Shown here piece after piece: positions 2,909 through 53,394 of a stretch of DNA of 55,955 bases (positions are counted from its first letter, which is position 1; each line of letters opens with the position of its first letter). The position numbers and the translations under genes were made by a program. The notes under the pieces are model-generated. The model was not told where the DNA came from and ran no database searches. It saw only the letters and a list, made by a program, of their open reading frames with translations. Origin of the DNA: Dokdonia sp. PRO95 (GTDB lineage: Bacteria > Bacteroidota > Bacteroidia > Flavobacteriales > Flavobacteriaceae); NCBI RefSeq assembly GCF_000355805.1, contig NZ_CM001837.1, positions 2,191,244 through 2,247,198 on the forward strand. The letters are read 5' to 3'.

Positions 2909-2921
2909 TTTCGCGAAAGCG
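2909..2921. repeat. Dispersed palindrome, right-arm form (TTTCGCGAAAGCG)
   Basis: Contains the exact core TTTCGCGAAA. It starts ten bases after the RlmL-like stop codon, in the 29-base gap between convergent genes. Confidence 0.85.
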
Positions 2922-2928
2922 TAAATAA

Positions 2929-3651
2929 TTACTTTTTAAAAATAGGAATTAAATACGACAGTGTATATCCATATCCTACGCCTATTGGAGTACCTTCTGT
3001 AAGTTCTCCGAACCCTGGAATATATAAATTTGAGTAGCCTTCTGGATCTTTAGTAGTTATAGTTCTTTTTAATTGTGCATTTACTCCTAGATAAATATTA
3101 CTAAATAATTCTACCTCCAAGCCTACTTTGAGTTCAAGCCAGGTAGCATTTAGCCCCTTGAATTCTTGACTTAAATTTCTCGTGTCGTCACCAAATACAG
3201 GGTTAGTTGTGTAAATTGTATAGCTTTCTAGCTCTTGACTAAAACTAGAAAAACCAGCTCTAACCCCTGCGTAGATGAGATTGTTCATCCCAAACCAGTT
3301 TTCATAGGTATTATAATTGAAACCCGCTTTTATGTAACTGCCGCTCGTGGTATTTTCTAGATTAGCAAGATCTGAGCTCCAAGTTTCGTTTCCTATCTCG
3401 GCGGCGAGATAGTAATTTTTTTTGAGTCTAAAATCTGCAACGAGTTCCAGGCCTTTAAAATTGTCGTCAAGAAATGATCTAATAGGTTTTGAAATATCTA
3501 CTCCTACACGCAAACCATAATAGTCTGTAGGTGCAGTAATAGAATCATTAGTAGTGATTTCTTTAGTCGTTTCTTGAGCTCGTACAGAACTAGTGAAGAA
3601 AGCAAGAATTACACTAGTGAAAAATACTAATATGTGCTTCAGTCTGATCAT
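2929..3651 (-). CDS. Outer-membrane beta-barrel protein (DUF6048-like)
   Basis: A 240-residue protein with a signal peptide (hydrophobic stretch after MIRLKHI, cleavage near VRAQ). The body has alternating aromatic strands such as NYYLAAEIGNETW and NLIYAGVRAGF and ends in a terminal strand PIFKK, typical of small outer-membrane barrels. I believe it is the DUF6048 family, which often sits next to a DUF6452 lipoprotein in Flavobacteriia, as it does here. Its start overlaps the end of the upstream lipoprotein gene by 38 bases, so the pair is probably co-transcribed and acts together in the envelope. The function is unknown. Confidence 0.65.
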   Translation of the reverse strand: MIRLKHILVFFTSVILAFFTSSVRAQETTKEITTNDSITAPTDYYGLRVGVDISKPIRSFLDDNFKGLELVADFRLKKNYYLAAEIGNETWSSDLANLENTTSGSYIKAGFNYNTYENWFGMNNLIYAGVRAGFSSFSQELESYTIYTTNPVFGDDTRNLSQEFKGLNATWLELKVGLEVELFSNIYLGVNAQLKRTITTKDPEGYSNLYIPGFGELTEGTPIGVGYGYTLSYLIPIFKK

Positions 3652-4117
3652 TTACTGTTGGGTTTTCAATATCTATATTCTGTATCCATGCTCCATCTTG
3701 TTGTGGATCAATTGTATTTTGTAAATCATCATATACTACTCTAAAGCCACATGCTTTATTTACAAACTCATCTGTGACAGTGTAAGTGAATGTTAAATCA
3801 TCAGTATTGGGTTCTTCTTCATCATCTTCGGCGGTATTGATTGTAAATGAGTACGTTGTAAGTTCGGCATTTGTGCGTAAAGGAATCTCTATGCTCTCTA
3901 AGTTTACAAGTGCTATTACTTCGTTTACCTCCTGATCAATAATGGTTGTGACCGTTAGATTATTTGGAGCTTTTAATAGTGATGGGTTATTTACATCATA
4001 AAAATCAATAATAAGTAATGGAGTAGTGGGCGTAGTTTCTGCACAGATATCATCTCGTTCGCAAGAACTCTGCCCTAGACTGGCACTTATTATCAAAATT
4101 AAAAGTAGCTTTCTCAT
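3614..4117 (-). CDS. Lipoprotein (DUF6452-like)
   Basis: A 167-residue predicted lipoprotein. I chose the ATG at 4117 because MRKLLLILIISASLGQSSC gives a clean lipoprotein signal with Cys at residue 19. A longer start (4132) would overlap rlmD and put charged residues in front. The mature part is Thr/Asp/Glu-rich with two more cysteines (C24 near the N terminus and the later ACGF segment) and looks beta-rich. It begins one base after the rlmD stop, so rlmD, this gene and the beta-barrel gene form a tight three-gene unit. The family assignment is tentative and the function unknown. Confidence 0.6.
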   Translation of the reverse strand: MRKLLLILIISASLGQSSCERDDICAETTPTTPLLIIDFYDVNNPSLLKAPNNLTVTTIIDQEVNEVIALVNLESIEIPLRTNAELTTYSFTINTAEDDEEEPNTDDLTFTYTVTDEFVNKACGFRVVYDDLQNTIDPQQDGAWIQNIDIENPTVNDQTEAHISIFH

Positions 4118-4118
4118 T

Positions 4119-5531
4119 TTATCTCTTTTCAAGTAATACCACGTTCTCTACATGATGAGTTTGAGGGAACATGTCTACAGGTTGCACTTTTATAACCTTA
4201 TATGTTTCATCTAATAACGCAAGATCGCGAGCTTGTGTTGCACTGTTACAACTTACGTAGACTACTTTTTGTGGAGATATATTAATTATTTGCTGCACTA
4301 CATCTGCGTGCATACCATCTCTAGGTGGATCTGTGATAATAATATCTGGAACGCCGTGAGTATTTATAAATTCTGTATTAAACACTTTCTTCATGTCACC
4401 TACAAAAAACTCAGTATTCTCTATACCATTGAGCTTTGCATTTTCCTTAGCTGCTTCAATGGCATCTGGGACAGCTTCTACACCAATCACTTTTCTAGCT
4501 TTCTTTGCTACAAACTGAGCAATAGTACCAGTTCCAGTATATAAGTCATACACTAGTTCATTACCTGTAAGTCCAGCAAAGTCTCGTGTGATTTTGTATA
4601 ACTCGTAAGCTTGTTTTGAATTAGTCTGATAAAATGATTTGGCATTAATTTTAAACTTGAGCCCTTCCATTTCTTCAAAAATATGATCTCTTCCAGAGAA
4701 ACAAATTACTTCCTGATCGTAAATCGTGTCGTTTCCTTTACTATTTATAACATATAAAAGCGAGGTGATTTCTGGCCAAGTATCTTTAATATAGTTTAGT
4801 AGTAATTCTCTATTCTCAGTTTCTTCCTTAAAGAATTGAACAAGAACCATTAACTCACCATTAGATGATGTGCGTATCATTAATGTACGAAGGAGTCCAT
4901 CTTGATTACGGGCATTATAAAATGCCATATTATTTGCAGTTGCAAATTCTTTTATTCCATTACGTATGGCATTACTAGGGTCGCGCTGTAAATGACATTT
5001 ATCAATATCAAGTATTTTATCCCACATCCCAGCGATATGAAAGCCTAGGGCATTTCTATCTTCAATAACTTCATCACTTTTTATTTGTTCAAGTGTAAGC
5101 CATTTTGAGTCAGAAAAACCAAACTCCATCTTATTGCGGTAAAAGTATTGCTCTGAGCTTCCAGCAATAGGAGTAAGTTCAGGAAGTTCAATTTTACCTA
5201 AGCGTTTAAGGTTATTTTCTACCTCTTGCTGTTTGTATTCTAATTGGAATTTATAATCCATGTGTTGCCACTTACAGCCACCACATGCATCAAAATGTTC
5301 ACATTGGGGTTGAGTACGCTTTCGCGAAAGCGTTAATACCTCTATTGCAGTTCCTTCATAATAAGCTTTACGCTTTTTTGTAGTTTGTACGTTTACAACA
5401 TCTCCAGGTACAGCATTATTGATGAAAATTACTTTTCCATCTGGTGCGTGACCGATAGCTTTACCTTTTGCACCTGCATCTGTTACACTAATATTTTCAA
5501 AAACCTGTCTGTTTTGTTTACGTCTTCCCAT
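4119..5531 (-). CDS. rlmD: 23S rRNA (uracil-1939-C5)-methyltransferase RlmD
   Basis: A 470-residue member of the TrmA/RlmD family, which methylates uracil C5 with SAM. An N-terminal TRAM domain (about 12-65) is followed by four Fe-S cysteines: C77, C83, C86 (CEHFDACGGC) and C179 (DKC). The methyltransferase domain has the SAM motif DLYTGTGTIAQ, the TDPPRDG motif and the nucleophile in YVSCNSATQARDL. RlmD is the best guess; a related TrmA-family paralogue with another U target cannot be excluded. A palindrome copy (5317-5332) encodes LSRKR at the joint between TRAM and the Fe-S segment. A TACTTTTG box lies five bases upstream of the ATG. Confidence 0.88.
   Translation of the reverse strand: MGRRKQNRQVFENISVTDAGAKGKAIGHAPDGKVIFINNAVPGDVVNVQTTKKRKAYYEGTAIEVLTLSRKRTQPQCEHFDACGGCKWQHMDYKFQLEYKQQEVENNLKRLGKIELPELTPIAGSSEQYFYRNKMEFGFSDSKWLTLEQIKSDEVIEDRNALGFHIAGMWDKILDIDKCHLQRDPSNAIRNGIKEFATANNMAFYNARNQDGLLRTLMIRTSSNGELMVLVQFFKEETENRELLLNYIKDTWPEITSLLYVINSKGNDTIYDQEVICFSGRDHIFEEMEGLKFKINAKSFYQTNSKQAYELYKITRDFAGLTGNELVYDLYTGTGTIAQFVAKKARKVIGVEAVPDAIEAAKENAKLNGIENTEFFVGDMKKVFNTEFINTHGVPDIIITDPPRDGMHADVVQQIINISPQKVVYVSCNSATQARDLALLDETYKVIKVQPVDMFPQTHHVENVVLLEKR
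5317..5332. repeat. Dispersed palindrome, full 16-base form, inside rlmD
   Basis: Perfect CGCTTTCGCGAAAGCG. Read on the minus strand it encodes Leu-Ser-Arg-Lys-Arg (about residues 68-72), between the TRAM domain and the first Fe-S cysteine. Confidence 0.9.
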
Positions 5532-5536
5532 AGGCG

Positions 5537-11329: not shown

Positions 11330-11420
11330 GATAGGCCGAAGTATGTAGTATGCTTTTATGCTTACTTTTCGATACATTGTATATTTTTACCGACTAAAAA
11401 CCTTTTCTATTTGTAAAATT

Positions 11421-11969
11421 ATGAAATTAGGAGATCAAGTGCAAGCGTTAGACGATGATTTTGAGGGTGTTGTAGTTAATGTCGAAAACGGACAAGTTTC
11501 GGTAGAAGATGAGGATGGATTTATATCCTATTTTCGCGAAAGCGAGCTTATACCTGCAGTGTCTAAAAGTATGAGAGCCGCTCTTTCTGTAGTACCGGAT
11601 TCTGTGATTTCAGAAAAAGAAGAGGCAAAGAAAAAGAAGGCAATAAGGGTGAATCCCAAAGAACGTAACGCTCCAATGTTTGAGGTGGATCTGCATATTC
11701 ACAAATTAGTAGATAGACAGCGTGGTATGAGTAATTATGAGATTCTGACCATCCAACTCGATACGGCATCTAGGCAACTAGAATTTGCTATTAAAAAGCG
11801 TATTCCTAAGATGGTTTTTATCCATGGAGTGGGAGAAGGAGTGCTTCGTGAGGAGCTATACACACTACTTCGTAGGTATGATAATCTTAGATTTTATGAT
11901 GCAGATTTTCAAAAATATGGGGTAGGAGCAACCGAAGTTTACATTTATCAAAATGCAACCCCTAATTAA
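11421..11969 (+). CDS. Smr-domain protein (Smr/MutS family)
   Basis: A 182-residue cytoplasmic protein. I place the start at the ATG at 11421 (MKLGDQVQ), because the upstream in-frame ATG (11358) adds an unlikely hydrophobic leader. The N-terminal part (1-45) looks like a small beta-barrel of the type found in flavobacterial DUF2027 proteins. The C-terminal Smr domain (about 93-180) has the VDLHIHKL strand and the HGVGEGVLRE motif characteristic of this nuclease-like fold. The palindrome at 11532 encodes FRES at the end of the N-terminal domain. The 3' end overlaps the convergent lipoprotein gene by eight bases. Confidence 0.82.
   Translation: MKLGDQVQALDDDFEGVVVNVENGQVSVEDEDGFISYFRESELIPAVSKSMRAALSVVPDSVISEKEEAKKKKAIRVNPKERNAPMFEVDLHIHKLVDRQRGMSNYEILTIQLDTASRQLEFAIKKRIPKMVFIHGVGEGVLREELYTLLRRYDNLRFYDADFQKYGVGATEVYIYQNATPN
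11532..11544. repeat. Dispersed palindrome, right-arm form, inside the Smr gene
   Basis: TTTCGCGAAAGCG is read in frame as Phe-Arg-Glu-Ser, at the end of the N-terminal domain. Confidence 0.85.
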
Positions 11970-12904: not shown

Positions 12905-12924
12905 GGACAAAGTGTTTGAAATAT

Positions 12925-12936
12925 GCTTTCGCGAAA
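12925..12936. repeat. Dispersed palindrome, left-arm form, intergenic
   Basis: GCTTTCGCGAAA between divergent genes. It is the only exact intergenic copy that does not lie downstream of a gene. Confidence 0.85.
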
Positions 12937-13039
12937 ATGTTATTTACTTTCTAAAAAGCAGCTATTAGAATGATCGTTTAACTCTACAATTTCTAATAAC
13001 CAAATAGACACCTATCGAGCAGTCCCGAGTTATTTTGGT

Positions 13040-14232: not shown

Positions 14233-14233
14233 T

Positions 14234-18459: not shown

Positions 18460-18475
18460 CGCTTTCTCGAAAGCG
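18460..18475. repeat. Dispersed palindrome, one-mismatch copy
   Basis: CGCTTTCTCGAAAGCG differs from the full 16-base form at one central base. It starts 11 bases beyond the stop of the DUF4249 gene (18487). Confidence 0.7.
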
Positions 18476-21861: not shown

Positions 21862-21877
21862 CGCTTTCGCGAAAGCG
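21862..21877. repeat. Dispersed palindrome, full 16-base form, downstream of icd
   Basis: Perfect CGCTTTCGCGAAAGCG, seven bases beyond the icd stop and before the terminator. Confidence 0.9.
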
Positions 21878-24916: not shown

Positions 24917-25042
24917 TTTATGGATATTAAAGTGGTTTTACATTAGGGCAACATTCACGCGTATCGTCAGAGGTTAGCCTAATCAGTTGCAAGAAATTCT
25001 TGCGGTATTAATTTCAGTATGTAAAAGTTGTAGTGGAGTGTT

Positions 25043-25056
25043 GCTTTCGCGAAAGC
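25043..25056. repeat. Dispersed palindrome, 14-base form, intergenic
   Basis: Perfect GCTTTCGCGAAAGC, 86 bases downstream of the rpsT stop and in the rplS upstream region. Confidence 0.9.
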
Positions 25057-25088
25057 GCTAGTAACACCTATCTACTTCGTAAATAACA

Positions 25089-30612: not shown

Positions 30613-32282
30613 TTTTTTACAGCCTCTAGTAAAACAATATCATATGGAGTATCAAGAGTTATCTTGCCGTCGATTATACTAGCTTCTTGTCCTGAGTAGG
30701 TGTCCTTGACAGTTTGCGCTTTCGCGAAAGCGTTACCCACCAGAATTTCTTTCACCCCGATATTTAAGTCTAATCCTATGACCACAGTATCTGTCAGACC
30801 ATTTTTATCAAATGATCTTTTAAAAACATAAGGAGCTGCACTTAGCATCTCGTGAGTACCAGCACCTACCGAAGGGTGATCTCTTCTAAATGTACCTAGC
30901 TTTTGCCAGTGGCTAAGAACATTATTTGTAGTGCTGTTCTCAATATCTTCCCAGTTCATGAAGCTCCTTAATGTAGCATCACCATTTGTTCCTTCTATGG
31001 TGAGTTCTCTCGCAGTTTCATCACCATAATAAACCTGAGATATCCCCGTAGTTAATAATAGCTTAGTACCTGTTTCTATAGCTTTGTTTCGGTCTTTATC
31101 AAATGGTTGTCCATCATCATGTGAGGTAGCATAGTTTACAAAACTCTTATCGCTAAAGATCGAATCCTTGATTGCTGCATACTTGCTAAATAACTGTTCA
31201 TAGCTTCCTTGAGCATCATATTTAAATTGGAAGTTGATGAGATTGTCAAAGCCATTTGCAAAGTAATCTACCTTTTTATCTCCAAAATCATAAGAACGAC
31301 CTCTATCTATAGAGTAATTATACACTTCTCCAAACATGAAAAAGTCATTATCATCTATCACTTTGTCTTCATTATTTGCTTTATAATCTGCAAAGGCTTT
31401 ATCTGCTTGTGCTCTTAATGCCACCCATGAGGCTTCGTCTACATGTTTTGTAGTATCAACTCTAAAAGCATCTACTCCAAAATCACGTATATAATCCGTA
31501 AGCCATTTTATAATGTAATTGCGTGGTGTTTTCTTGAGGTTATTTGTTGCAAAATAAGAGTCAAGCTCAGCCATTTCTTCATCATAACGTCCTTCAGACT
31601 TCCATTTTGCTACTAATGTAGTAGGAAGTGTGACTTCTTGATCACTCTCTGTTAGGATGTCTGGAAGGTTTTCTACAAGACTGCAAGCAGTAGTGTTTTC
31701 ATAGGTGCTGAAAGCACAATTAGGATTTTCTCGTGCCCAATCTTCACCCCAGAATGGATCTTGCTCTGTAACTGGACCTGTGTGGTTAAGTACCACATCC
31801 ATAACGATACGTATATCTTTTTGATGTGCTGCGCTTATTAATTTTTGCAAGTCCTCTCTTGTACCAAAGTTAGGGTCTAGTGAAGTCCAGTCCTTGGTCC
31901 AGTAACCGTGATAACCATAAGTAACACCTGTGCCTTCATCTACTGCTCCATGTACTTGCTCTACAACTGGAGTAAACCAGATGGCATTAATCCCTAGATC
32001 TGTAAAATAGCCATCTTCTATTTTCTGTGTGATTCCTTTGATGTCACCACCCATAAAATCTCTAAGTACAGCACTCTCTTGAGTTCTATCAAAGTTGACA
32101 TCATTACTTGTGTCGCCATTATTAAAACGATCTGTAAGTAGGAAATACATATTTGAAGCTTCCCAGAGAAAAGGAGTTTTTCTTTCCACTTCAGCCTGCG
32201 TTACTGTAGTTTCTTTTTCTTTACAGCTTGATATTGAAACAACAACAAAGAGTAGTGCGACTATAGACTTTATATTCATCAT
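30609..32282 (-). CDS. Lipoprotein alpha-amylase family glycosidase (GH13)
   Basis: A 557-residue enzyme. I set the start at 32282 (MMNIKSIVALLFVVVSISSC), which gives a lipoprotein signal; a longer open frame to 32516 would run antisense into menA and lacks a signal. GH13 regions: I, DVVLNHTG; II, DAFRVDTTKH with the nucleophile Asp; III, FGEVYNY with the acid Glu; IV, YATSHDDGQPF with the stabilising Asp. Early region: YFLLTDRFNNGD. The enzyme probably acts at the cell surface on alpha-glucans. The palindrome at 30717 encodes AFAKA in the C-terminal beta domain. No susCD partners nearby. Confidence 0.87.
   Translation of the reverse strand: MMNIKSIVALLFVVVSISSCKEKETTVTQAEVERKTPFLWEASNMYFLLTDRFNNGDTSNDVNFDRTQESAVLRDFMGGDIKGITQKIEDGYFTDLGINAIWFTPVVEQVHGAVDEGTGVTYGYHGYWTKDWTSLDPNFGTREDLQKLISAAHQKDIRIVMDVVLNHTGPVTEQDPFWGEDWARENPNCAFSTYENTTACSLVENLPDILTESDQEVTLPTTLVAKWKSEGRYDEEMAELDSYFATNNLKKTPRNYIIKWLTDYIRDFGVDAFRVDTTKHVDEASWVALRAQADKAFADYKANNEDKVIDDNDFFMFGEVYNYSIDRGRSYDFGDKKVDYFANGFDNLINFQFKYDAQGSYEQLFSKYAAIKDSIFSDKSFVNYATSHDDGQPFDKDRNKAIETGTKLLLTTGISQVYYGDETARELTIEGTNGDATLRSFMNWEDIENSTTNNVLSHWQKLGTFRRDHPSVGAGTHEMLSAAPYVFKRSFDKNGLTDTVVIGLDLNIGVKEILVGNAFAKAQTVKDTYSGQEASIIDGKITLDTPYDIVLLEAVKN
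30717..30732. repeat. Dispersed palindrome, full 16-base form, inside the amylase gene
   Basis: Perfect CGCTTTCGCGAAAGCG read as Ala-Phe-Ala-Lys-Ala in VGNAFAKAQTVK, in the C-terminal non-catalytic domain. Confidence 0.9.
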
Positions 32283-33299: not shown

Positions 33300-33312
33300 C
33301 GCTTTCGCGAAA
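33300..33312. repeat. Dispersed palindrome, left-arm form, downstream of menA
   Basis: CGCTTTCGCGAAA, 14 bases after the menA stop. Confidence 0.9.
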
Positions 33313-33417
33313 ATTTTCTAAAAACCTTTATTACCATCACGAAATAATCCACAATGTTATGCATCACTAATGGATTACCAATAAAACTGCGCTTTTCAAT
33401 AGAAGCCGGTGTAAAGC

Positions 33418-33932: not shown

Positions 33933-34883
33933 TTAGCGCATTTTTGCATTTTTATCAAATTTGTATCCGTTTAAAAGGTCTTTAACAGCCATTTTTTTCT
34001 TCCCAGAGAGCTGTATTTCGGTGATGCAAATGTAACCTTCTGGCGTTGCGATAGCTAGATGATCATCTACTTGGGTTACTGCTCCAGATGGAATAAACAT
34101 CTCTTTTTCTGCTTTCGCGAAAGCGCTATAAATTTTTACACGTTGCTCTTTTCCTCCATTTTCGAGCATAGTGTAGGCAGCTGGATAAGGGCTCAGGCCT
34201 CTTATGTGATTGTAAATATCTTGAAGAGGAGCTTCCCAGTTTATTCTTGTGTTTTCACTATGTAACTTGTAAGCAGTCTTTAATTCTTTTGAGGAGTCTT
34301 GTACAAATGTGGTTACTTCGTCACTCGCTATTGCTTTAACAGTTTTTACTACAAGGTCTTTACCTGCAATCATAAGGCGATCATGTAAAGCGCCGGCATT
34401 TTCCTTGTCACCTATAGCAAGTTTCTCTTGTAAAATAATCTCACCGGTATCAATTTTTTCATCTATAAAGAAAGTGGTTACTCCAGTTTCTGTATCCCCA
34501 TTAATAATAGCCCAGTTTATAGGTGCAGCGCCACGATATTGAGGTAATAGAGAAGCATGAAGATTAAAGGTTCCATAAGCCGGCATTTTCCACACAGCTT
34601 CTGGAAGCATTCTAAAAGCAACTACAATCTGTAGGTTTGCATTAAGAGCTTTTAATTCTTTTAAAAACTCCTCGCTTTTAAGATTTGTAGGTTGCAAGAT
34701 GTTTAGGTTTTTAGTCTTAGCAAATGCCTTTACATCACTTTCTCTTACTTTTTGTCCTCTTCCTGCAGGGCGATCTGGAGCGGTAATTACTCCCACTACA
34801 TTATACTTTTCTTCTAGTAGGCCATTTAAAATGGTTACAGCAAACTCTGGTGTACCCATAAAAACTATGCGTAAATCTCTCAT
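33933..34883 (-). CDS. fmt: Methionyl-tRNA formyltransferase
   Basis: A 316-residue enzyme that formylates initiator Met-tRNA with 10-formyl-THF. It has RIVFMGTPEFAV at the N terminus, the formyltransferase core NLHASLLPQYRGAAPINWAI (about 105-125) and the following GDTETGVTTFFID. The C-terminal OB-fold domain ends in LSGKKKMAVKDLLNGY. The palindrome at 34111 encodes AFAKA in that domain. Its start overlaps recQ by four bases (ATGA), so it is translated from the recQ transcript. Confidence 0.95.
   Translation of the reverse strand: MRDLRIVFMGTPEFAVTILNGLLEEKYNVVGVITAPDRPAGRGQKVRESDVKAFAKTKNLNILQPTNLKSEEFLKELKALNANLQIVVAFRMLPEAVWKMPAYGTFNLHASLLPQYRGAAPINWAIINGDTETGVTTFFIDEKIDTGEIILQEKLAIGDKENAGALHDRLMIAGKDLVVKTVKAIASDEVTTFVQDSSKELKTAYKLHSENTRINWEAPLQDIYNHIRGLSPYPAAYTMLENGGKEQRVKIYSAFAKAEKEMFIPSGAVTQVDDHLAIATPEGYICITEIQLSGKKKMAVKDLLNGYKFDKNAKMR
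34111..34124. repeat. Dispersed palindrome, 14-base form, inside fmt
   Basis: Perfect GCTTTCGCGAAAGC, read as Ala-Phe-Ala-Lys-Ala in the C-terminal domain (IYSAFAKAEKE). Confidence 0.9.
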
Positions 34884-37681: not shown

Positions 37682-37694
37682 CGCTTTCGCGAAA
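37682..37694. repeat. Dispersed palindrome, left-arm form, downstream of DUF493
   Basis: CGCTTTCGCGAAA, nine bases after the DUF493 stop. Confidence 0.9.
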
Positions 37695-37730
37695 ATGTAA
37701 TTAATCACCACTATTTTGTAGCATCACTAT

Positions 37731-40019: not shown

Positions 40020-40032
40020 GTGGAATAGATTC

Positions 40033-40040: not shown

Positions 40041-40045
40041 TGTAC

Positions 40046-41170
40046 ATGATTCGTTTAATCAGCATAACGCTTTTATTTTCAATACTCATCTTATCTTGTG
40101 ATCAAATGGAGGAACCTCAAATTCATAATACGCCTATTGTTATTGCACACAGGGGAGCACAATTTTTATATCCCGAGCATACGATGGAAGGGTATAAAAA
40201 AGCAATCGAACTAGGCGCAGATTTTATAGAGCCAGATCTTGTGATGACAAAGGATGGAATTCTTGTAGCTAGGCATGAGCCTTTTATTTCTGAAACGACT
40301 AATGTCTCTGCGCTCCCAGAATATGCAGATCGTAAAACAACCAAAATGCTTGATGGTGTAGCTGTGACAGATTGGTTTGTATCTGACTTCACGTTTAGCG
40401 AACTCAAAACACTACGAGCTAGGCAGTCTTGGGAAGAGAGAACTCACGAGTATGATGATCTTTTTGAGATCCCTACGTTTGAGGAGATTATCGCTTTCGC
40501 GAAAGCGCATAAAACCACATCAGGAAATTCTGTGGGTATTTATCCAGAATTAAAGCATCCTAGTTTTCATAAAAGTCTAGGGCTCGCCATGGAAGATGTC
40601 TTCCTTAATCAGATTACAATTGCTGGTTATGTAAGTAAGACTTCTCCCATTTTTGTGCAATGTTTTGAGGTGAGTACGTTGCAGTACATAGCAACTCATT
40701 CTGAAGTGAGACTTATACAGCTTATTGGTGCAGCTGGAATCTCTAGTAATGGAGATTTACGCTTCACTAAAGAAGATGGCAGCTATGATCCAGAAGGGCA
40801 ACCTTATGATTTCATACTTAATAAAAATGCTCACACGTACAGCTACTTTACAACCGAAGAGGGAATGAAGTTTGTCTCCGCCTATGCAGATGGTATAGGT
40901 CCTTGGAAACCTTTTGTAATTTCTTATAGTAAAACAGATGAAGGAGAGGTTGAGGTGCTAGCTCCTACAGATTTTGTTGCGATGGCACATAAGTATAAGT
41001 TAGAAGTGCATCCGTACACCTTTAGAAAAGAAGATACCCTGTGGAATAATAATAAGAGTGGTGCAACCGAGTATCAATTGTTTTTTAAGGCAGGGGTAGA
41101 CGGAGTTTTTAGCGATTATACTAAGGATGCCGTTGCTGCTAGAAACAAATTCTTTACTACTAGAGATTAG
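40046..41170 (+). CDS. Glycerophosphodiester phosphodiesterase, lipoprotein
   Basis: A 374-residue enzyme. The ATG at 40046 gives a lipoprotein signal (MIRLISITLLFSILILSC); the longer frame from 40007 would run through the terminator and promoter box. GDPD landmarks: IAHRGAQFLYPEHTMEGY with the catalytic His, GADFIEPDLVMTKDG with the metal-binding Glu and Asp, then RHEPFI, and PELKHPSFH. The length matches the periplasmic GlpQ type. It hydrolyses glycerophosphodiesters to glycerol-3-phosphate. The palindrome at 40492 encodes AFAKA between EEII and HKTTSG. Confidence 0.9.
   Translation: MIRLISITLLFSILILSCDQMEEPQIHNTPIVIAHRGAQFLYPEHTMEGYKKAIELGADFIEPDLVMTKDGILVARHEPFISETTNVSALPEYADRKTTKMLDGVAVTDWFVSDFTFSELKTLRARQSWEERTHEYDDLFEIPTFEEIIAFAKAHKTTSGNSVGIYPELKHPSFHKSLGLAMEDVFLNQITIAGYVSKTSPIFVQCFEVSTLQYIATHSEVRLIQLIGAAGISSNGDLRFTKEDGSYDPEGQPYDFILNKNAHTYSYFTTEEGMKFVSAYADGIGPWKPFVISYSKTDEGEVEVLAPTDFVAMAHKYKLEVHPYTFRKEDTLWNNNKSGATEYQLFFKAGVDGVFSDYTKDAVAARNKFFTTRD
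40492..40507. repeat. Dispersed palindrome, full 16-base form, inside the GDPD gene
   Basis: Perfect CGCTTTCGCGAAAGCG read as Ala-Phe-Ala-Lys-Ala in EEIIAFAKAHKT. Confidence 0.9.
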
Positions 41171-42600: not shown

Positions 42601-42606
42601 ATAATT

Positions 42607-42621
42607 GCTTTCGCGAAAGCG
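42607..42621. repeat. Dispersed palindrome, 15-base form, between convergent genes
   Basis: GCTTTCGCGAAAGCG in the 33-base gap between mtaB and the acetyltransferase gene. No classical terminator is present there. Confidence 0.9.
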
Positions 42622-43902: not shown

Positions 43903-44322
43903 ATGAAAAATAGTAAAGAAGAAGTACTAGCACGTCTAGCAGAGAGTTGTAAAAATACTTTAATGGAAACCTTAGATATTACTTATATCGATTTTGGAGA
44001 GGATTTTCTTGTAGCACAAATGCCTGTAACTCCAAAAGTGCATCAGCCTGATGGAGTGCTGCATGGAGGTGCTATGGTTGCACTTGCAGAGAGTGTAGGG
44101 AGCGCGGCTAGTTTTATGTTTCTCAATCAGGAGCATACCATTAGAGGTATCGAAATCTCGGCAAATCATGTGAAGAGCAAACGTGATGGGATGGTTTATG
44201 CAAAAGCTACATTTATACACAAAGGCAGAACCACCCAGCTTTGGAACATCGATGTGGTAGATGAAAATGATGCCCTTATATCTAAATGTAAATTGACTAC
44301 AATCGCATTGCCTAGGAAGTAA
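43903..44322 (+). CDS. Hotdog-fold thioesterase, probably DHNA-CoA thioesterase (MenI-like)
   Basis: A 139-residue PaaI-family hotdog protein. VHQPDGVLHGGAMVALAESVGSAAS (residues about 46-70) carries the HGG turn and the catalytic Glu of this family. Alone the fold does not fix the substrate, but the gene overlaps menF by one base (TAATG) and menD follows. Hydrolysis of 1,4-dihydroxy-2-naphthoyl-CoA, the step between MenB and MenA, is therefore the likely role. This is inference from context. Confidence 0.8.
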   Translation: MKNSKEEVLARLAESCKNTLMETLDITYIDFGEDFLVAQMPVTPKVHQPDGVLHGGAMVALAESVGSAASFMFLNQEHTIRGIEISANHVKSKRDGMVYAKATFIHKGRTTQLWNIDVVDENDALISKCKLTTIALPRK

Positions 44323-45455
44323 TGAATAGCACAGACTTTTTTAACCATATCGAAGAGCATTTTGAAAGTACATTGCCATTTGTGGTGTACAGAAAACCTA
44401 ATCAAGAAAAGATTCATGCGCTTTTACAAGATGATGAAATTCTTCATGAGGTAAATGACTTCTCAGAAAGTGGCTTTGTGTTTGCTCCTTTTGATGCATC
44501 TACTTCAGAGACTGTCTTGATTCCTACAGAAGAGTCTTTTGTTATGGAACTAGATTCTTTTGAAAATGATATACTGCTAGATGCAGAAACAATCGTTGTT
44601 AATCACACAAAAGAAGATCGTGCAGCACATATTGACTTAGTAAGAAAAGGAATTAAGGCCATAGCAGATACGGTTATGAAGAAAGTTGTGCTTTCGCGAA
44701 AGCAAAACATACCGCATAACTATGAATCTCCTGTGGAGATTTTCAAGCGATTACTTGGGACTTATAAAACTGCATTTGTGTATTGCTGGTATCATCCTAA
44801 GGTAGGTTTATGGCTAGGGGCTACTCCGGAAACATTGTTATCTATAAATAATAGACGTTTGCATACCATGTCGCTAGCTGGAACACAGAAAACAAGCACT
44901 AGCTCTCATGTGGTCTGGGGAGCAAAAGAAAGAGAGGAACAACAATTTGTGACAGATTCTATTGTTGAAAATCTATCAACGCTTGTAAATGACCTTCAAG
45001 TTTCTGATGTAATGACTCAGCAAGCAGGAACTTTGCTGCACCTTAAAACAGATATTTCTGCAATCATCAATGAAAATGAAACAAGCATAGCTGCTGTAAT
45101 AAATGCTTTACACCCCACACCAGCCGTTTGCGGACTACCAAAAAATGAAGCAAAAGATTTCATTCTTAATCATGAAGGATATGAACGTTCTTATTATACA
45201 GGGTTCTTAGGAGAACTTAATTATAAAACAGAAAAAAAGAGAGCAAGTACACGTAGGAATGTTGAGAATCTAGCGTATAGCACCATAAAAAAGCATACAC
45301 TCTTATTTGTAAACCTACGATGTATGGAAGTAGATGCTAGTGGAGCACAGTTATATGTAGGTGGAGGAGTAACCGCCTCAAGTGATGCTGTTGCAGAGTG
45401 GGAGGAAACCGTAAATAAGCTTCAAACCATAGCAAAAGTACTACGTACTACATAA
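44322..45455 (+). CDS. menF: Isochorismate synthase
   Basis: A 377-residue chorismate-binding enzyme that converts chorismate to isochorismate, entering menaquinone synthesis. It has VVLSRKQN, LGATPETLLS, SLAGTQK, and the terminal LYVGGGVTASSDAVAEWEETVNKLQ typical of the MenF/EntC/DhbC group. Menaquinone assignment rests on the coupling with the MenI-like gene (one-base overlap) and menD downstream. The palindrome at 44690 encodes Leu-Ser-Arg-Lys of the first motif. Confidence 0.9.
   Translation: MNSTDFFNHIEEHFESTLPFVVYRKPNQEKIHALLQDDEILHEVNDFSESGFVFAPFDASTSETVLIPTEESFVMELDSFENDILLDAETIVVNHTKEDRAAHIDLVRKGIKAIADTVMKKVVLSRKQNIPHNYESPVEIFKRLLGTYKTAFVYCWYHPKVGLWLGATPETLLSINNRRLHTMSLAGTQKTSTSSHVVWGAKEREEQQFVTDSIVENLSTLVNDLQVSDVMTQQAGTLLHLKTDISAIINENETSIAAVINALHPTPAVCGLPKNEAKDFILNHEGYERSYYTGFLGELNYKTEKKRASTRRNVENLAYSTIKKHTLLFVNLRCMEVDASGAQLYVGGGVTASSDAVAEWEETVNKLQTIAKVLRTT
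44690..44703. repeat. Dispersed palindrome, 14-base form, inside menF
   Basis: Perfect GCTTTCGCGAAAGC read as Leu-Ser-Arg-Lys in VVLSRKQN, a segment where this family normally has a Lys-Val-Val-Leu-Ser-Arg stretch. Here the protein motif itself may explain the copy. Confidence 0.85.
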
Positions 45456-45555: not shown

Positions 45556-47274
45556 ATGATCCACTCTAAAATTCCTGTAGCACAATCTATCGTTCACCTT
45601 TGCTTAAGTAAAGGAATTGATACGGTTATTATATCTCCAGGGTCCCGTAACGCACCGCTCACTATTGAGTTTACAAAAAATCCAAATATAAAAGCATACA
45701 GCATTGTAGATGAGCGTTGTGCAGCCTTTGTAGCTTTAGGAATAGCACAGCAATCTAGAAAACCTGTGGCTATTGTATGTACTTCGGGTAGTGCTTTACT
45801 TAATTACTATCCAGCAATCTCTGAAGCTTTTTATAGTGATATACCGCTTATCGCTATAAGTGCAGATAGACCTATTGAACGTATAGATATAGGAGATGGA
45901 CAGACGATAAGGCAGAAGAACGTTTTTGAAAATCACATTTTGTATTCGGCAAATTTATATTCAGAATTAGTGCCTACAGACGAGGTTACGGATACTAAGG
46001 TTGCCCAGAAAATAAAGGAAAGCCAGCGACATAATGATCAAGAGATTAATAAAGCGCTCAATATTGCGATTGAACAATCTGGGCCAGTACATATTAATGT
46101 TCCTTTTTACGAGCCTTTGTATGAGATGACAGATGTGGCGATAGCAAAACCTATAGAAGTAGCACCTCACAAAATTATTGGTGAGTTATCTCTAGACGAG
46201 TTACAGCCATATATGGATAGCTGGAGTAAAGCAACGCGTAAGCTTGTAATTATTGGCGTTCAGGAACCTGATATGATGGATCAATCATTACTTGATATGC
46301 TAGGCAATGATCCAAGTGTTATTGTGTTTACAGAGACTACTTCAAATGTTTCTCATCCTAATTTTTTTACGCGCATAGATAACATTATAGGTAGTCTGGA
46401 TGATGACGGCTTTAAAGCATTGCAGCCAGATATTGTATTAACCTTTGGAGGAATGGTAGTTTCAAAAAAGGTAAAAGCTTTTCTTAGAAATTACCAGCCA
46501 CAACAACACTGGCATGTAGATACCAAGAAAGCTTATGATACTTATTTCTGTCTCAATAAGCACTTTGAAACATCTGCCTCTCACTTTTTAGAAAGCCTGA
46601 GAGAGCACACTTCTTACTCTCAAAGCCCTTACCAAAAGGAATGGCTCGCTGTAAGGGAAAAACGCGATATACTGCATACAGAGTATATCAATCAAATGGA
46701 ATGGTGCGATTTTAAGGCATTTGACCATATTCTCAGTGAGATTCCAGATCACTCAATGCTGCAACTAGGTAATAGTAGTACTGTGAGATACGCTCAGCTT
46801 TTTGATATCAATAAAACCCTTGAGGTGTATTGTAATAGAGGAACTAGTGGTATAGATGGAAGCACCAGTACGGCAATAGGAGCTGCTATGGTAAGTGCAA
46901 AACCTACTACACTCATTACTGGAGAGCTAAGTTTTTTTTATGATAGTAATGCGCTGTGGAACAAGAATATCCCGCAAGATTTCAAAATCATCGTTATTAA
47001 CAACAGTGGAGGAGGTATTTTCCGCATCTTGCCTAACAAGGATAAGAACACAGATAACTTTGATGAGTTTTTTGAAACTACGCATGATCTTTCGGCAGAG
47101 AAATTATGTGAGATGTATAATTTTAAGTACTTAAAAGCAGATAGTGAGGAAGGTTGCGCTTTCGCGAAAGCGGAGTTATATGCATCTAACGATAAACCTA
47201 CATTGCTTGAAATCTTCACACCGCGCAAAATCAACGATAAAGTGTTACTCGATTACTTTAACTTTATCAAGTAA
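45556..47274 (+). CDS. menD: 2-succinyl-5-enolpyruvyl-6-hydroxy-3-cyclohexene-1-carboxylate synthase
   Basis: A 572-residue thiamine-diphosphate enzyme that condenses isochorismate and 2-oxoglutarate. Landmarks: the N-terminal VISPGSRNAPLTIEF, DERCAAFVALG with the catalytic Glu, the CTSGSALLNYYPA stretch, and near the C terminus CNRGTSGIDGSTSTAIGAA and INNSGGGIFRILP (ThDP/Mg binding). The ATG at 45556 is chosen because the in-frame TTG at 45547 lies in the promoter box. The palindrome at 47157 encodes AFAKA close to the end. Confidence 0.93.
   Translation: MIHSKIPVAQSIVHLCLSKGIDTVIISPGSRNAPLTIEFTKNPNIKAYSIVDERCAAFVALGIAQQSRKPVAIVCTSGSALLNYYPAISEAFYSDIPLIAISADRPIERIDIGDGQTIRQKNVFENHILYSANLYSELVPTDEVTDTKVAQKIKESQRHNDQEINKALNIAIEQSGPVHINVPFYEPLYEMTDVAIAKPIEVAPHKIIGELSLDELQPYMDSWSKATRKLVIIGVQEPDMMDQSLLDMLGNDPSVIVFTETTSNVSHPNFFTRIDNIIGSLDDDGFKALQPDIVLTFGGMVVSKKVKAFLRNYQPQQHWHVDTKKAYDTYFCLNKHFETSASHFLESLREHTSYSQSPYQKEWLAVREKRDILHTEYINQMEWCDFKAFDHILSEIPDHSMLQLGNSSTVRYAQLFDINKTLEVYCNRGTSGIDGSTSTAIGAAMVSAKPTTLITGELSFFYDSNALWNKNIPQDFKIIVINNSGGGIFRILPNKDKNTDNFDEFFETTHDLSAEKLCEMYNFKYLKADSEEGCAFAKAELYASNDKPTLLEIFTPRKINDKVLLDYFNFIK
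47157..47172. repeat. Dispersed palindrome, full 16-base form, inside menD
   Basis: Perfect CGCTTTCGCGAAAGCG read as Ala-Phe-Ala-Lys-Ala in EGCAFAKAELY. Confidence 0.9.
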
Positions 47275-49354: not shown

Positions 49355-50494
49355 TTAAAAACGAATCTTTCTAGAAATTTGTTTTGATAGCCCTTCTTTA
49401 TGCATAATCACAGAGATGGCCTTGAGACGTATGTAGGGCACACTCATATATATGTAGCCATCATACTTCGTTCTTCCAGAGTCTGTACCCCACGAGTTTT
49501 TTACTTTATAATAGACATTACCATTTTGATCTGTTGCTTTCCCTGTGATATGCATCAAGTGGTCATCTGTAGTATTATAGTTTTCAAACTCATCTTGACG
49601 GTATTGTTGTGTAATTGTTTTTTCTTGCTCCGGTCCTAGTACAGCGAGTTTCTTATTACTTTCATTATCTGGTATTACAGCTACACCGTGTTTTGAAGAA
49701 AAAGATAACTCACTCACATCACAATCTAGCGTTACTGTATAACCGTTGCTTAATGCGTTATCTATATTTGAAACAAACTCATCTAGCGGTACATTATACA
49801 TCGCTCCATTAGAAAAGTTATCAGGAATATTAAGGATGAATGATTTGTAAAATGGCTGGTGAGTAAAAGAAGTTAGTGTTACATAATCGGTAGGCACTAT
49901 CTTCATTTCCTTCGCAAACTCTTTAGGAGTGTACGTTTTACCATCATAAGAAAAATTATTAATATTCTCACCTAGATAAACATCCAGCACCTTATCTACT
50001 GCGGTTTTCCACTTTTTGCTTAATGTTCTTCCTGGATTATCTATATAAGTGTCTAGCATACTATGTATAACAGCCACCATTTCGGCGTGGTTATGTTTAG
50101 TATCTGTAAGTGTCAGACCGGTGTAGGCGCTGTTTGGTGCTAGGCCATAACGCGTAACACTATTAATGACATCGTGCGCGAGTCCGCCTTCAGAAAATTG
50201 AGCCTTTCCTTGACGCATTACATAATTTTCAGCTTTTGCCGGGTAAGTATTCCTTACTGTGTACATTTCTGAAAGATCTACCATTTTACCAGTAAGTCTA
50301 GCAATCTCGCTTTCTAAAAATGAAGATGTACTAAAACTCCAGCACGTTCCTGTTACTCCTTGACTTATGACTGGTGTAGCCTGTAAATCAATAGTATCTG
50401 TAAAAATGTAGGAACCCGTAGTGTTTTCTTGTGCGTAATACGCTTTTGCGAAAGCAAAAACAACCACAATACTTAGTAGTACTTTTTTCATCAT
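49355..50494 (-). CDS. Secreted C1-family (papain-like, bleomycin hydrolase-type) peptidase
   Basis: A 379-residue cysteine peptidase with a signal peptide (cleavage near YYAQ, about residue 22). The active site is complete: Q45 and C51 in QGVTGTCWSFS, the His in DDHLMHITG (H312 or H315) and N333 in VKNSWGTDSG. The architecture fits the C1B aminopeptidase group common in Bacteroidota, exported to the periplasm or outside. The signal peptide contains FAFAKAY, encoded by a degenerate palindrome copy (50441). It is divergent from menB. Confidence 0.87.
   Translation of the reverse strand: MMKKVLLSIVVVFAFAKAYYAQENTTGSYIFTDTIDLQATPVISQGVTGTCWSFSTSSFLESEIARLTGKMVDLSEMYTVRNTYPAKAENYVMRQGKAQFSEGGLAHDVINSVTRYGLAPNSAYTGLTLTDTKHNHAEMVAVIHSMLDTYIDNPGRTLSKKWKTAVDKVLDVYLGENINNFSYDGKTYTPKEFAKEMKIVPTDYVTLTSFTHQPFYKSFILNIPDNFSNGAMYNVPLDEFVSNIDNALSNGYTVTLDCDVSELSFSSKHGVAVIPDNESNKKLAVLGPEQEKTITQQYRQDEFENYNTTDDHLMHITGKATDQNGNVYYKVKNSWGTDSGRTKYDGYIYMSVPYIRLKAISVIMHKEGLSKQISRKIRF
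50441..50455. repeat. Dispersed palindrome, one-mismatch copy, in the C1 peptidase signal peptide
   Basis: CGCTTTTGCGAAAGC differs by one base in the centre and is read as Phe-Ala-Lys-Ala in the signal peptide. Confidence 0.65.
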
Positions 50495-50534
50495 CTAGTA
50501 ATAAAGAATTATTTTTACGTAAAAATAGCACATT

Positions 50535-51374: not shown

Positions 51375-51401
51375 TGAAAGGAATAATTTAATAGTAAACA
51401 T

Positions 51402-51439
51402 AAAAAATCCCGCTCTATATTATAGAGCGGGATTTTTAT
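51402..51439 (+). terminator. Rho-independent terminator between menB and the M42 gene
   Basis: AATCCCGCTCTATA pairs with TATAGAGCGGGATT, with A and T runs on both sides. It can serve both convergent genes. Confidence 0.92.
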
Positions 51440-51445
51440 TAAAAA

Positions 51446-51461
51446 CGCTTTCGCGAAAGCG
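51446..51461. repeat. Dispersed palindrome, full 16-base form, between convergent genes
   Basis: Perfect CGCTTTCGCGAAAGCG, ten bases beyond the M42 stop and next to the terminator. Confidence 0.9.
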
Positions 51462-51471
51462 TAACTACTAC

Positions 51472-52560
51472 TTATTCAAAATATGAAAACGTCTCACCAT
51501 CTTCTATAGTAAGCAGCGTTTCATAAATAAGTTTTATTACATTCTCTACATCTTCACGGTGTACCATCTCTACAGTAGTGTGCATATATCTTAATGGTAA
51601 TGATATAAGAGCAGAGGCAACACCACTACCGCTATAAGCAAAAGCATCTGTATCTGTACCCGTAGCACGAGAAAGTGCAGCCCTCTGGAAAGGAATCTCT
51701 TTCTTCTCTGCAGTTTCTGTAATACGGTCACGTAGTTTTTGCTGTACAGCAGGAGCATAAGCAACTACAGGGCCTTTGCCTATCTCTGCGTGTCCCTGTT
51801 TTTTCATATCTATCATAGGTGTTGTCGTGTCGTGAGTAACATCTGTGACAATGGCAACATCTGGTTTTATACGTTCTGCAATCATTTGTGCTCCACGCAG
51901 TCCTATCTCTTCTTGTACTGAGTTTGTGATGTATAGTCCAAAAGGTAGTTTCTTTTTATTCTCGTGTAAAAGTCTCGCTACCTCTGCAATCATAAAACCA
52001 CCAGCGCGGTTATCTATCGCTCTACACACAAATTTATCGTCATTAAGAATATGGAAGGTGTCTGGATACGTAATTACACAACCTACGTGTACACCCATTT
52101 TTTCTACCTCTTCTTTATCTTTTGCTCCTATGTCTATAAAGATATTGTCAGGTTTTGGTGCTTCTTCTTTTGCTTTATTACGAGTATGTATTGCTGGCCA
52201 GCCAAAAACTCCTTTTACAATTCCGTTTTTAGTATGCACGTTTACAATCTTAGAAGGTGCAATCTGGTGATCACTACCACCATTGCGTATTACATAGATA
52301 AGACCATTATCTGCTATGTAATTTACATACCAAGAGATTTCATCTGCGTGACCTTCTATTACAACCTTATATTTTGCCTCAGGATTTATTACCGCAACCG
52401 CCGTACCGTAGGTATCTGTGATAAACTCATCTACATATGGTTTAAGATAATCCATCCATAATTTCTGTCCATCCCACTCATAGCCTGTAGGGGCTGCGTT
52501 GTTGAGGTAACTCTCAAGAAAGTCTAGAGACTTTTTATTTAAAATGCTTTTTGAAGCCAT
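51472..52560 (-). CDS. M42 family metallopeptidase (glutamyl/deblocking aminopeptidase type)
   Basis: A 362-residue dinuclear zinc aminopeptidase. Metal and catalytic residues are visible in GHADEISWYVNYI, RAIDNRAGGFMIAEV, NSVQEEIGLRGAQM (catalytic Glu-Glu) and VTDVTHDTTTP. Near the C terminus, SLPLRYMHTTVEMVH has the third-site His. The family forms large tetrahedral complexes that trim peptides in the cytoplasm. No signal peptide. Convergent with menB. Confidence 0.92.
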   Translation of the reverse strand: MASKSILNKKSLDFLESYLNNAAPTGYEWDGQKLWMDYLKPYVDEFITDTYGTAVAVINPEAKYKVVIEGHADEISWYVNYIADNGLIYVIRNGGSDHQIAPSKIVNVHTKNGIVKGVFGWPAIHTRNKAKEEAPKPDNIFIDIGAKDKEEVEKMGVHVGCVITYPDTFHILNDDKFVCRAIDNRAGGFMIAEVARLLHENKKKLPFGLYITNSVQEEIGLRGAQMIAERIKPDVAIVTDVTHDTTTPMIDMKKQGHAEIGKGPVVAYAPAVQQKLRDRITETAEKKEIPFQRAALSRATGTDTDAFAYSGSGVASALISLPLRYMHTTVEMVHREDVENVIKLIYETLLTIEDGETFSYFE

Positions 52561-52668
52561 AGAATAATATTTTTTTTAAAAGTAAGAATATTAACCAAGA
52601 GTTAATGACGTTATAGCACTCTAATCTTTAATTTTGGAATGATTTTAGCTTAAAGCGAAATAAAAAAG

Positions 52669-53349
52669 ATGCGTATACATAATCTCCTATATATAATAGT
52701 ATTCATAGCAGGGCTTGCACAAGCTCAAGAAACTCCTGTAGATTCAACAGAAGTTGAAATTGAATATTACATAATTCAAGGAGACACCATTCCAAGGAGC
52801 GCTATAGATCTTAATGAGGTAATCGTTTTTAAAAGGCTAAAATTTGATAATAAGCAAGACCGAAGACGATACTTAATACTACGCCGTAAAACCAGAAAGG
52901 TTTTTCCTTATGCAAAACTCGCTGCAGATAGGCTGGTCGCGCTTAATAATAGACTTGACTCCATAGAAGGAAAACGTGCTAGAAAGAAATACACAAAAAT
53001 CATTCATAAGTACCTAGAAGGCGAATTTTCAGCAGAGCTTAAGAAACTCACACGCACAGAAGGGCAAATACTTATTAAACTCATACATCGTCAAACAGGT
53101 GAGACAGCCTTCGAGTTAATAAAGAGACTACGCAGTGGCTGGAGAGCATTTTGGTATAACACCACCGCAAGCGCTTTTGATATTTCACTTAAGAGAGAAT
53201 TCAATCCAGAACAAGAACAAGAGGATTACCTTATAGAAGATATACTACAGCGTTCTTTTCAATCAGGTATACTTGAGCCGCAGCCTAGTGTGTTAGATTT
53301 TAAATTTCTCGAATTATCAGATAAGTGGAAGAATAAAGGAGTAGAGTAG
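52669..53349 (+). CDS. DUF4294 family protein
   Basis: A 226-residue secreted or periplasmic protein. The signal peptide is MRIHNLLYIIVFIAGLAQA. The mature part has GDTIPRSAIDLNEVIVFKRL, then a basic helical region RRRYLILRRKTRKVFPYAKLAADRL and the LTRTEGQILIKLIHRQTGETAFELIK segment typical of DUF4294. Function unknown; the family is confined mainly to Bacteroidota and lies next to rrn or peptidase genes in some relatives. It is divergent from the M42 gene. Confidence 0.85.
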   Translation: MRIHNLLYIIVFIAGLAQAQETPVDSTEVEIEYYIIQGDTIPRSAIDLNEVIVFKRLKFDNKQDRRRYLILRRKTRKVFPYAKLAADRLVALNNRLDSIEGKRARKKYTKIIHKYLEGEFSAELKKLTRTEGQILIKLIHRQTGETAFELIKRLRSGWRAFWYNTTASAFDISLKREFNPEQEQEDYLIEDILQRSFQSGILEPQPSVLDFKFLELSDKWKNKGVE

Positions 53350-53381
53350 TACCTATATACTTTAGTGTAGTGTACCTTTTA

Positions 53382-53394
53382 CGCTTTCGCGAAA
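53382..53394. repeat. Dispersed palindrome, left-arm form, downstream of DUF4294
   Basis: CGCTTTCGCGAAA, 32 bases past the DUF4294 stop. It is the last copy; none is seen in the rRNA region. Confidence 0.9.

Follow-up and report, generated by a model that had tools for sequence, protein, structure and literature searches.

A highly iterated palindrome in Dokdonia and two other genera of Flavobacteriaceae: a possible DNA self tag

Among described systems, the uptake signal sequences (USS) of Pasteurellaceae and the DNA uptake sequences (DUS) of Neisseria, or DNA uptake enhancing sequences (DUES), come closest in behavior to the subject of this work, a palindrome with the ten-base core TTTCGCGAAA that is iterated along a 55,955-nucleotide stretch of the genome of Dokdonia sp. 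PRO95 (contig NZ_CM001837.1, positions 2,191,244 to 2,247,198; this whole stretch is hereafter the window), a member of a genus whose strains are laboratory-grown proteorhodopsin models. USS are reported to evolve by point mutation and not by insertion, and their core is accompanied by AT tracts (PMC7811141). Neisseria DUS have a conserved core within less conserved surroundings, a pattern like the one found here (PMC2397512), and DUES are more frequent than expected in non-coding DNA (PMC1939737). In Pasteurellaceae, USS build up in temperate phages, and one group of large phages, likely lytic, is described as USS-poor (PMC6776037). Within the Flavobacteriaceae, one species is reported to prefer its own DNA in transformation (PMC7965970). 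Two other iterated words bear on the comparison: Escherichia coli Chi, with 1008 copies in 4.64 Mb (PMC1939737), and the highly iterated palindromes (HIPs) of cyanobacteria, which generally number 1000-2000 per Mb and track methyltransferases that read their inner words (PMC4390886).

An original prediction, made from the letters of the window alone, held that no named element matches this palindrome, and the literature agrees as far as it was covered: the 10-mer occurs only in papers that, by their titles and the start of their abstracts, look unrelated, and the 14-mer occurs in none. No paper describing the element was found for the 10-mer, the 14-mer, iterated palindromes in Bacteroidetes, Flavobacteriaceae or Dokdonia, or Dokdonia transformation, in searches that covered few subscription journals and were judged from listings; the motifs described in a Bacteroidetes LexA paper are others (PMC8565304). 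Herein we propose, by analogy and with somewhat less than even confidence, that the palindrome serves as a DNA self tag akin to uptake sequences but free of orientation. This reading is favored over a bidirectional Chi-like recombination hotspot and over a site for a nucleoid protein. Self recognition of an uptake or recombination type was absent from the roles that the original prediction listed and fits the comparative evidence better.

Abundance, range and conservation of the palindrome

The core is found 17 times in the window, every copy exactly where the original prediction had placed it, against a mean of 0.02 in dinucleotide-preserving shuffles, none of which (0/100) reached 17. The 12-mer GCTTTCGCGAAA gives 27 matches over both strands, with 0 expected. 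Six of the 17 copies are the full 16 bases, four are intact over the inner 14 bases but differ at one or both of the outermost bases, and seven are without one arm of the palindrome. Three one-mismatch copies had been reported as well; they exist, the positions given for them being starts of the 16-mer, with cores that begin at 18463, 42909 and 50444. A fourth, at 7434, had been missed.

Counting the word in the whole genome and in related genera had been proposed as a check on the abundance, and the genome-wide count departs far from expectation. The genome (3,305,093 bases in one contig) contains 1018 cores, about one per 3.2 kb or 310 per Mb, compared with 10 copies of the reversed word. 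All 18 Dokdonia genomes carry hundreds, with forward-strand counts of GCTTTCGCGAAA from 421 to 1049, as compared to 0 or 1 per strand in 21 genomes of other genera; one Dokdonia stretch (L136 of G013) has only 1 core in 20 kb. Among 397 genomes drawn from the family, hundreds of copies occur only in Dokdonia and two further genera, here called g26 (585 to 679 copies in three genomes) and g206 (482 in one genome), and no other genome of the draw exceeds 23. When 392 genomes were drawn across the phylum, the genome of the window being the sole one from these three genera, the 14-mer was counted 794 times in that genome and 0 to 6 times in each of the others. No comparable iterated palindrome was seen in 13 stretches (8-20 kb) of other genera and 8 Salegentibacter/Gillisia loci, small samples that could miss one. 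In a tree of MenD, g206 clusters with Dokdonia and g26 is placed at a great distance, positions that rest on one genome for g206 and two for g26. The tree took 19 of 35 sequences; the 16 dropped by a filter include G425 and G176, the latter being poor in the palindrome and matching MenD as well as g206 does (66%).

The core is strongly conserved. It is kept exactly in 32 of 34 comparisons with the relatives G006 and G008 (89% identity), where ~31% is the expectation in the absence of constraint. Each of the two losses is one substitution in the core, and two of the copies that have one mismatch in the window are intact in G006 and G008 alike. The core is 99.4% identical in either relative, and the bases 8 to 30 from the center, at 0.85 to 0.88, fall below the 0.89 average. 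Among more distant Dokdonia (mean identity 75%), the core is kept in 20 of 30 comparisons against 8% expected, a set that includes one pair in the exchanged tract described below and in which locus L070 was assigned to G009 by guess. The reverse count gives 21 of 29, with G013 entering twice.

Where copies are lost from the genes examined, residues are replaced and length does not change. In MenD, for example, AFAKA occupies the place of other residues in other genera with no gap. Judged by the losses in close relatives and by the coding cases, the site changes by substitution rather than insertion. These results bear on the selfish short element that the original prediction listed among possible roles, considered here as a mobile unit multiplied by a transposase or recombinase. 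The many copies would suit such an element, as would their presence on islands common to several genera, and one intergenic site of G004 that is absent from the window does align with gaps. Insertion is ruled out for the coding cases examined, however, and the sites have no alignable flank in common; the suggestion fits poorly and is very improbable. The same alignments and flank comparison bear out the broader description of a dispersed, highly iterated palindrome that is neither an ordinary transposon nor a repetitive extragenic palindromic (REP) repeat.

One part of the window has a separate history. Positions 49388-53394 are 97.8% identical to G003, another Dokdonia, with the other aligned blocks at 74 to 82%, and up to 51375 the same 4-kb tract is 95.9% identical to G016 in a neighborhood otherwise of about 76%. 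On these identities, the tract is a recent between-species exchange. Its right edge is the last base of the core at 53385-53394, beyond which ~160 bases are unalignable; its left edge is not at a site. The coincidence of edge and core is a single case, and an alignment would tend to end at a shared word. High-identity tracts ending near sites were also considered in G006 and G008, not against a null.

Anatomy, placement and spacing of the sites

The anatomy of the site was derived from 137 cores in 455,955 bases of this genome (the window plus 20 stretches of 20 kb). The consensus extends beyond the core to TTACGCTTTCGCGAAAGCGTAA, and from there out to ~25-30 bases from the center the 5' side of each strand is depleted in C (0.02-0.16, mostly <0.10, against a background of ~0.18 at 60 bases from the center and beyond), with G ranging from 0.17 to 0.35. 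These flanking arms are GT-enriched on the 5' flank of both strands, and their C-depletion is present in coding copies of either orientation and in intergenic copies. This suggests that the element may be a dyad-symmetric site of about 50-60 bp, consisting of the core plus its arms. The flanks had originally been called unrelated, which is correct in that they have no alignable sequence in common but not in that they share a strong strand-asymmetric composition. In g26 the arms are also C-poor, with T peaks at -11, -14, -17 and -20, and the form differs from that of Dokdonia mainly at position -9 and in the arms. The arms of g206 are much weaker than in either. For a 3-base T periodicity of the arms, permutation gave p values of 0.015 and 0.002 in the two Dokdonia sets and 0.19 in g26. 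With position -11 included, a count by phase reaches significance in Dokdonia and in g26, also for the intergenic copies, but not in g206; that position dominates the count and codon structure confounds coding copies, so the periodicity was set aside.

The copies are divided almost evenly between genes and the DNA between them. Open reading frames (ORFs) of at least 90 codons cover 87% of the sampled DNA and hold 67 of the 137 copies; the other 70 fall in the remaining 13%, so copies are about fourfold enriched between ORFs. The 70 comprise 42 copies flanked by co-directional ORFs, 11 flanked by divergent ORFs, 11 flanked by convergent ORFs and 6 at stretch ends, class counts for which no expectation was computed. 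Coding copies mostly read AFAKA, RFRES or LSRKR.

The palindrome can form a hairpin, and it might be read as a bidirectional transcription terminator or other transcript signal. The arms beyond the stem are no more complementary than their composition predicts, and therefore they do not make a longer hairpin; the flanks as an extended hairpin were rejected on this basis. In addition, as many copies lie in divergent as in convergent regions and nearly half are inside ORFs, which leaves a transcript signal with only a slight chance of being the explanation.

The original prediction had likened the element to the HIPs of cyanobacteria. The likeness holds for behavior: like HIP1, this palindrome is highly iterated and limited to a few genera, and it could be imagined to be kept by a DNA methyltransferase together with methyl-directed repair. 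It does not extend to the unit. The minimal unit is the 10-mer at least, as 137 of 138 occurrences of TTCGCGAA fall inside it and 1 outside, and the nested words CGCG, TCGCGA and TTCGCGAA show no excess outside the 10-mer (TCGCGA, 33 outside versus 54 expected in all). One-mismatch words are clearly in excess only for a change at core position 3 or its mirror (18 versus ~2 expected), with no clear excess for changes at the outer core bases. Given also that the arms reach 25-30 bases from the center and that half of the copies are intergenic, maintenance of the HIP1 type is improbable.

The sites are spaced too evenly. Gaps <1 kb make up 8.6% of all gaps, as compared to 29.7% (standard deviation 3.7) in a null that held the coding and intergenic numbers fixed, and the coefficient of variation of the gaps is 0.56 versus 0.97 in the null. 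The same is seen in the first 100 sites of the genome list, in other Dokdonia and in g26; in g206 spacing is too even by coefficient of variation (p 0.015) and not by short gaps (p 0.43). Twenty places around the genome all contain sites, 4-10 per 20 kb, with no gross regional bias. Three gaps of 10-15 kb were considered as foreign islands and rejected as such: two hold giant ORFs (1632-3213 aa), the third holds ordinary ORFs up to 1123 aa, and no RNA family lies inside.

Such spacing is what a nucleoid or chromosome-organizing protein might require, with the arms as extra contacts, and the symmetric extended site, the lack of regional bias and the purifying conservation are consistent with that role. 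The retention of sites in phages and transferred islands, described below, is not obviously expected from it. ParB, the sole such protein compared, is matched once per genome in 26 of 30, and among 30 aligned proteins 0 columns separate the 12 tag-bearing from the 18 tag-free genomes; ParB as the reader was rejected. The consensus parS is absent from 8 Dokdonia, present as one copy in each of three g26 genomes and found in none of the other 19 genomes. Taken together, these results make a nucleoid-protein site rather unlikely.

Phages, transferred islands and candidate readers

The palindrome is not confined to chromosomes. The 16-mer is present in 41 stretches from virus contigs. Most of those with 33-44% GC have C-poor arms, three with 47-48% GC have two or three copies each and weak arms, and eight GC-rich stretches with single copies look like chance. 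The tagged contigs encode portal, capsid, terminase and tape-measure proteins. Three tagged phage contigs carry a lifestyle marker and all are temperate, with a tyrosine integrase in one and Mu-like transposases in two, one of which also encodes a CI-like repressor; no phage of these hosts was recognized as virulent. Related phages of <90% identity, for the most part at about 65%, retain 13 of 17 sites versus 1.15 expected, in pairs that are not independent. A 34-base idealized query against named phages and plasmids retrieved 5 phage and 3 plasmid records, all partial matches with E 0.3 to 4 that were judged to be chance.

Several tag-free genera have copies grouped on islands, and the spacing of the copies is the same wherever such an island recurs. 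Like conjugative elements, some of the islands encode a DUF5712 protein along with a TraG-type coupling protein, and relatives of the coupling protein (69-75% identity) are found in Dokdonia G008, G010 and G013. Islands of <80% identity keep 42 of 74 sites versus 4.2 expected, with both directions counted and pairs that are not independent. An island seen in several Flavobacteriaceae genera (L140-L144, L153) has, in most of them, two palindromes 933 bases apart and ORFs of ~1250, 405-418 and 811-858 aa, sizes that by themselves, with no search made, suggest metal efflux genes.

The retention of sites in mobile DNA can also be considered in terms of recombination. RecA prefers GT-rich DNA, and the GT-rich strand of each arm is the 3' tail that a Chi-like enzyme would leave, which makes a bidirectional Chi the first rival to an uptake tag. 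In such a system a processive end-processing enzyme, AddAB or another, would be switched at the palindrome from either side, RecA would be loaded on the C-poor, GT-rich 3'-ended strand on each side, and sites every 3 kb would protect and repair any DNA in the cell. Several observations are consistent with this: the would-be 3' tail has the same composition in coding and intergenic copies, the density (one site per 3.2 kb) is close to the value for E. coli Chi, sites are kept in phages and transferred islands, and both AddA and AddB occur, with a divergence that is faster than for MenD. The Chi sites known so far are short words recognized on a single strand, unlike a palindrome of 10-16 bp with arms. 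An AddB-type nuclease is present in 30 of 30 genomes tested, and thus its presence fails to explain why few genera carry the tag. AddB has 2 weak separating columns of 987 (8 tag-bearing versus 12 tag-free genomes). AddA has 20 of 1148, although from only 5 tag-bearing genomes that form one clade (Dokdonia plus g206), so common descent may explain them. The comparison thus gives no clear signal for AddAB as the reader. Since the phages that could be judged are temperate, phage self-protection is not shown either. We consider a Chi-like hotspot unlikely, if less so than the other rivals. As separate observations, AddA and AddB are 71% identical and MenD 85% identical between G000 and G003 (L276-L282), and three g26 stretches have no AddA-sized ORF beside AddB.

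The copies in the window are collected in Table 1. Beside one of them, ~66 bases from the copy at 25042, lies an L19-Flavobacteria ribosomal protein leader (Rfam RF03130; 24949-24976). A dispersed repeat of ~80-100 bases at 37734-37834, between two ORFs, has copies of 74-88% identity elsewhere in the genome and in other Dokdonia and no Rfam match at the gathering score. Stretch L138 of Dokdonia G017 has ten copies of another 10-mer, ACGAGGTACG, in 20 kb, probably a local repeat.

Table 1. Copies of the palindrome in the window, with their context and their state in other Dokdonia genomes
Feature	Span	Core	Strand	Context	State in other genomes
Palindrome copy, left arm lost	2906..2921	2909-2918	.	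between convergent ORFs	kept in G006, G008
Full 16-bp palindrome	5317..5332	5320-5329	.	inside rlmD-like ORF 4119-5531	kept in G006, G008
One-mismatch core TTGCGCGAAA	7434..7443		.	sequence match	
Palindrome copy, left arm lost	11529..11544	11532-11541	.	inside ORF 11358-11969	kept in G006, G008
Palindrome copy, right arm lost	12924..12939	12927-12936	.	between divergent ORFs	kept in G006, G008
Decayed copy, one mismatch	18460..18475	18463	.		intact in G006, G008
Full 16-bp palindrome	21862..21877	21865-21874	.	just past monomeric isocitrate dehydrogenase stop	kept in G006, G008
14-bp palindrome	25042..25057	25045-25054	.	intergenic	kept in G006, G008
Palindrome copy, right arm lost	26424..26439	26427-26436	.	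inside ORF 25701-27179	kept in G006; lost in G008 (one C-to-T) and G003
Full 16-bp palindrome	30717..30732	30720-30729	.	inside alpha-amylase-like ORF, reads AFAKA	kept in G006, G008, G003, G004, G016
Palindrome copy, right arm lost	33300..33315	33303-33312	.	past a stop codon	kept in G006, G008
14-bp palindrome	34110..34125	34113-34122	.	inside ORF 33933-34883, reads AFAKA	kept in G006, G008, G003, G004, G016
Palindrome copy, right arm lost	37682..37697	37685-37694	.	intergenic	kept in G006, G008
Full 16-bp palindrome	40492..40507	40495-40504	.	inside ORF 40007-41170, reads AFAKA	kept in G006, G008, G003, G016; lost in G004
14-bp palindrome	42606..42621	42609-42618	.	between convergent ORFs	kept in G006, G008, G004, G016; lost in G003, L070
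One-mismatch copy TTCCGCGAAA	42906..42921	42909	.	sequence match	
14-bp palindrome	44689..44704	44692-44701	.	inside ORF 44322-45455, reads LSRK	kept in G006, G008 and 7/7 further aligned Dokdonia (67-76% DNA identity)
Full 16-bp palindrome	47157..47172	47160-47169	.	inside menD, reads AFAKA, no indel	kept in G006, G008 and 2/8 further Dokdonia
Decayed copy, one mismatch	50441..50456	50444	.		intact in G006, G008 and in six other Dokdonia
Full 16-bp palindrome	51446..51461	51449-51458	.	between convergent ORFs	lost in G006 (one core change); kept in G008
Palindrome copy, right arm lost	53382..53397	53385-53394	.	last core base is right edge of 4-kb tract shared with G003	kept in G006, G008

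A possible uptake-type tag and its relation to known systems

The uptake-type self tag could arise as follows. A sequence-specific receptor in the natural-transformation route of Dokdonia and the two other genera would bind the dyad site of about 50-60 bp, and DNA carrying the tag would be preferentially imported and recombined. Tagged alleles would thereby replace untagged alleles, and the tag would accumulate at permissive places, at about one per fragment-sized stretch, in everything resident in the chromosome, including phages and conjugative elements. We infer the receptor, the biased uptake and the drive from the pattern of the sites. Apart from palindromy and the mutual avoidance of sites, that pattern matches uptake sequences, an argument by analogy. 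The edge of the 97.8% tract at a core, a single case, is also counted in its favor. In its wider form, the proposal is that a self tag in Bacteroidota, read during DNA uptake or recombination, has spread by drive in three genera, through their chromosomes and through the phages and conjugative elements resident there, and that mobile elements need the tag as they pass between hosts; this we put forward tentatively, with about one chance in three in its favor as a matter of judgment.

A number of points weigh against the uptake-type tag. The arms are the part that uptake leaves unexplained, and we know of no USS counterpart to such strand-asymmetric flanks. No receptor was found. Of the transformation genes, ComEC-type ones occur in all 30 genomes tested for them and DprA in all 16, equally in tag-free genera. 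Among 14 control genomes the two families also match in 10 and 11, respectively, and their presence therefore neither discriminates tag bearers nor shows competence. Island tags that are kept in tag-free hosts need shuttling through tagged hosts. The top k-mers listed for three other Flavobacteriaceae, among them the species with a preference for its own DNA, are A/T-rich words. DUES are stated not to be palindromes (PMC1939737), and short-motif uptake bias is described for Pasteurellaceae and Neisseriaceae (PMC7811141). According to the same source, 23% of Haemophilus influenzae USS10 lie within 100 bp of another (PMC7811141), whereas the tags here avoid each other within 1 kb. Finally, many DUS are said to arise by recombination and not by point mutation (PMC2397512), two origins that the present data do not separate.

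The distinction between an uptake tag and a Chi-like site matters beyond these genera. A Chi-like site, if real, would be the first palindromic Chi known to us, with the RecA-loading strands written into its flanks. An uptake tag would permit a direct test of molecular drive versus function, that is, of whether a word spreads by being taken up or by the need of the cell. On either reading, the tag should tell which phages and conjugative elements belong with these hosts. Uptake biased to short motifs is reported from two proteobacterial families (PMC7811141), and a palindromic counterpart in marine Bacteroidota would, if true, be a further, independent origin.

Compared with known systems, the element has partial likenesses. 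Intrinsic terminators differ from it in that its copies also lie between divergent ORFs and within ORFs. REP sequences, bacterial interspersed mosaic elements (BIMEs) and miniature inverted-repeat transposable elements (MITEs) differ in that it is not an inserted unit, is not mainly intergenic and is not alignable beyond the palindrome. The parS/Noc-type sites of the ParB family have symmetric consensus words with TTTC and GAAA halves and resemble it in both respects; however, its 1018 copies, found in all 20 places sampled, are not a few ori-proximal ones, and ParB is without separating residues. With HIP1 and alternate HIPs it has in common a highly iterated palindrome of disputed role in certain lineages only (PMC4390886), but it is longer, has arms, occurs at about 310 per Mb, is half intergenic and shows no inner-word excess. 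To Chi it is similar in density and, by inference, in GT-rich 3'-tail flanks, and it is different in being palindromic, longer and confined to few genera. From USS and DUS, which are not palindromes, it departs in its palindromy and hence its lack of orientation, its occurrence in Bacteroidota, its strand-asymmetric arms and the avoidance of sites by one another within 1 kb. With them it shares a clade-limited iterated word with dialects, a core with extended flanks (weak in g206) that is conserved in permissive places, a non-coding excess and, judged from three contigs with a lifestyle marker, a presence in temperate phages.

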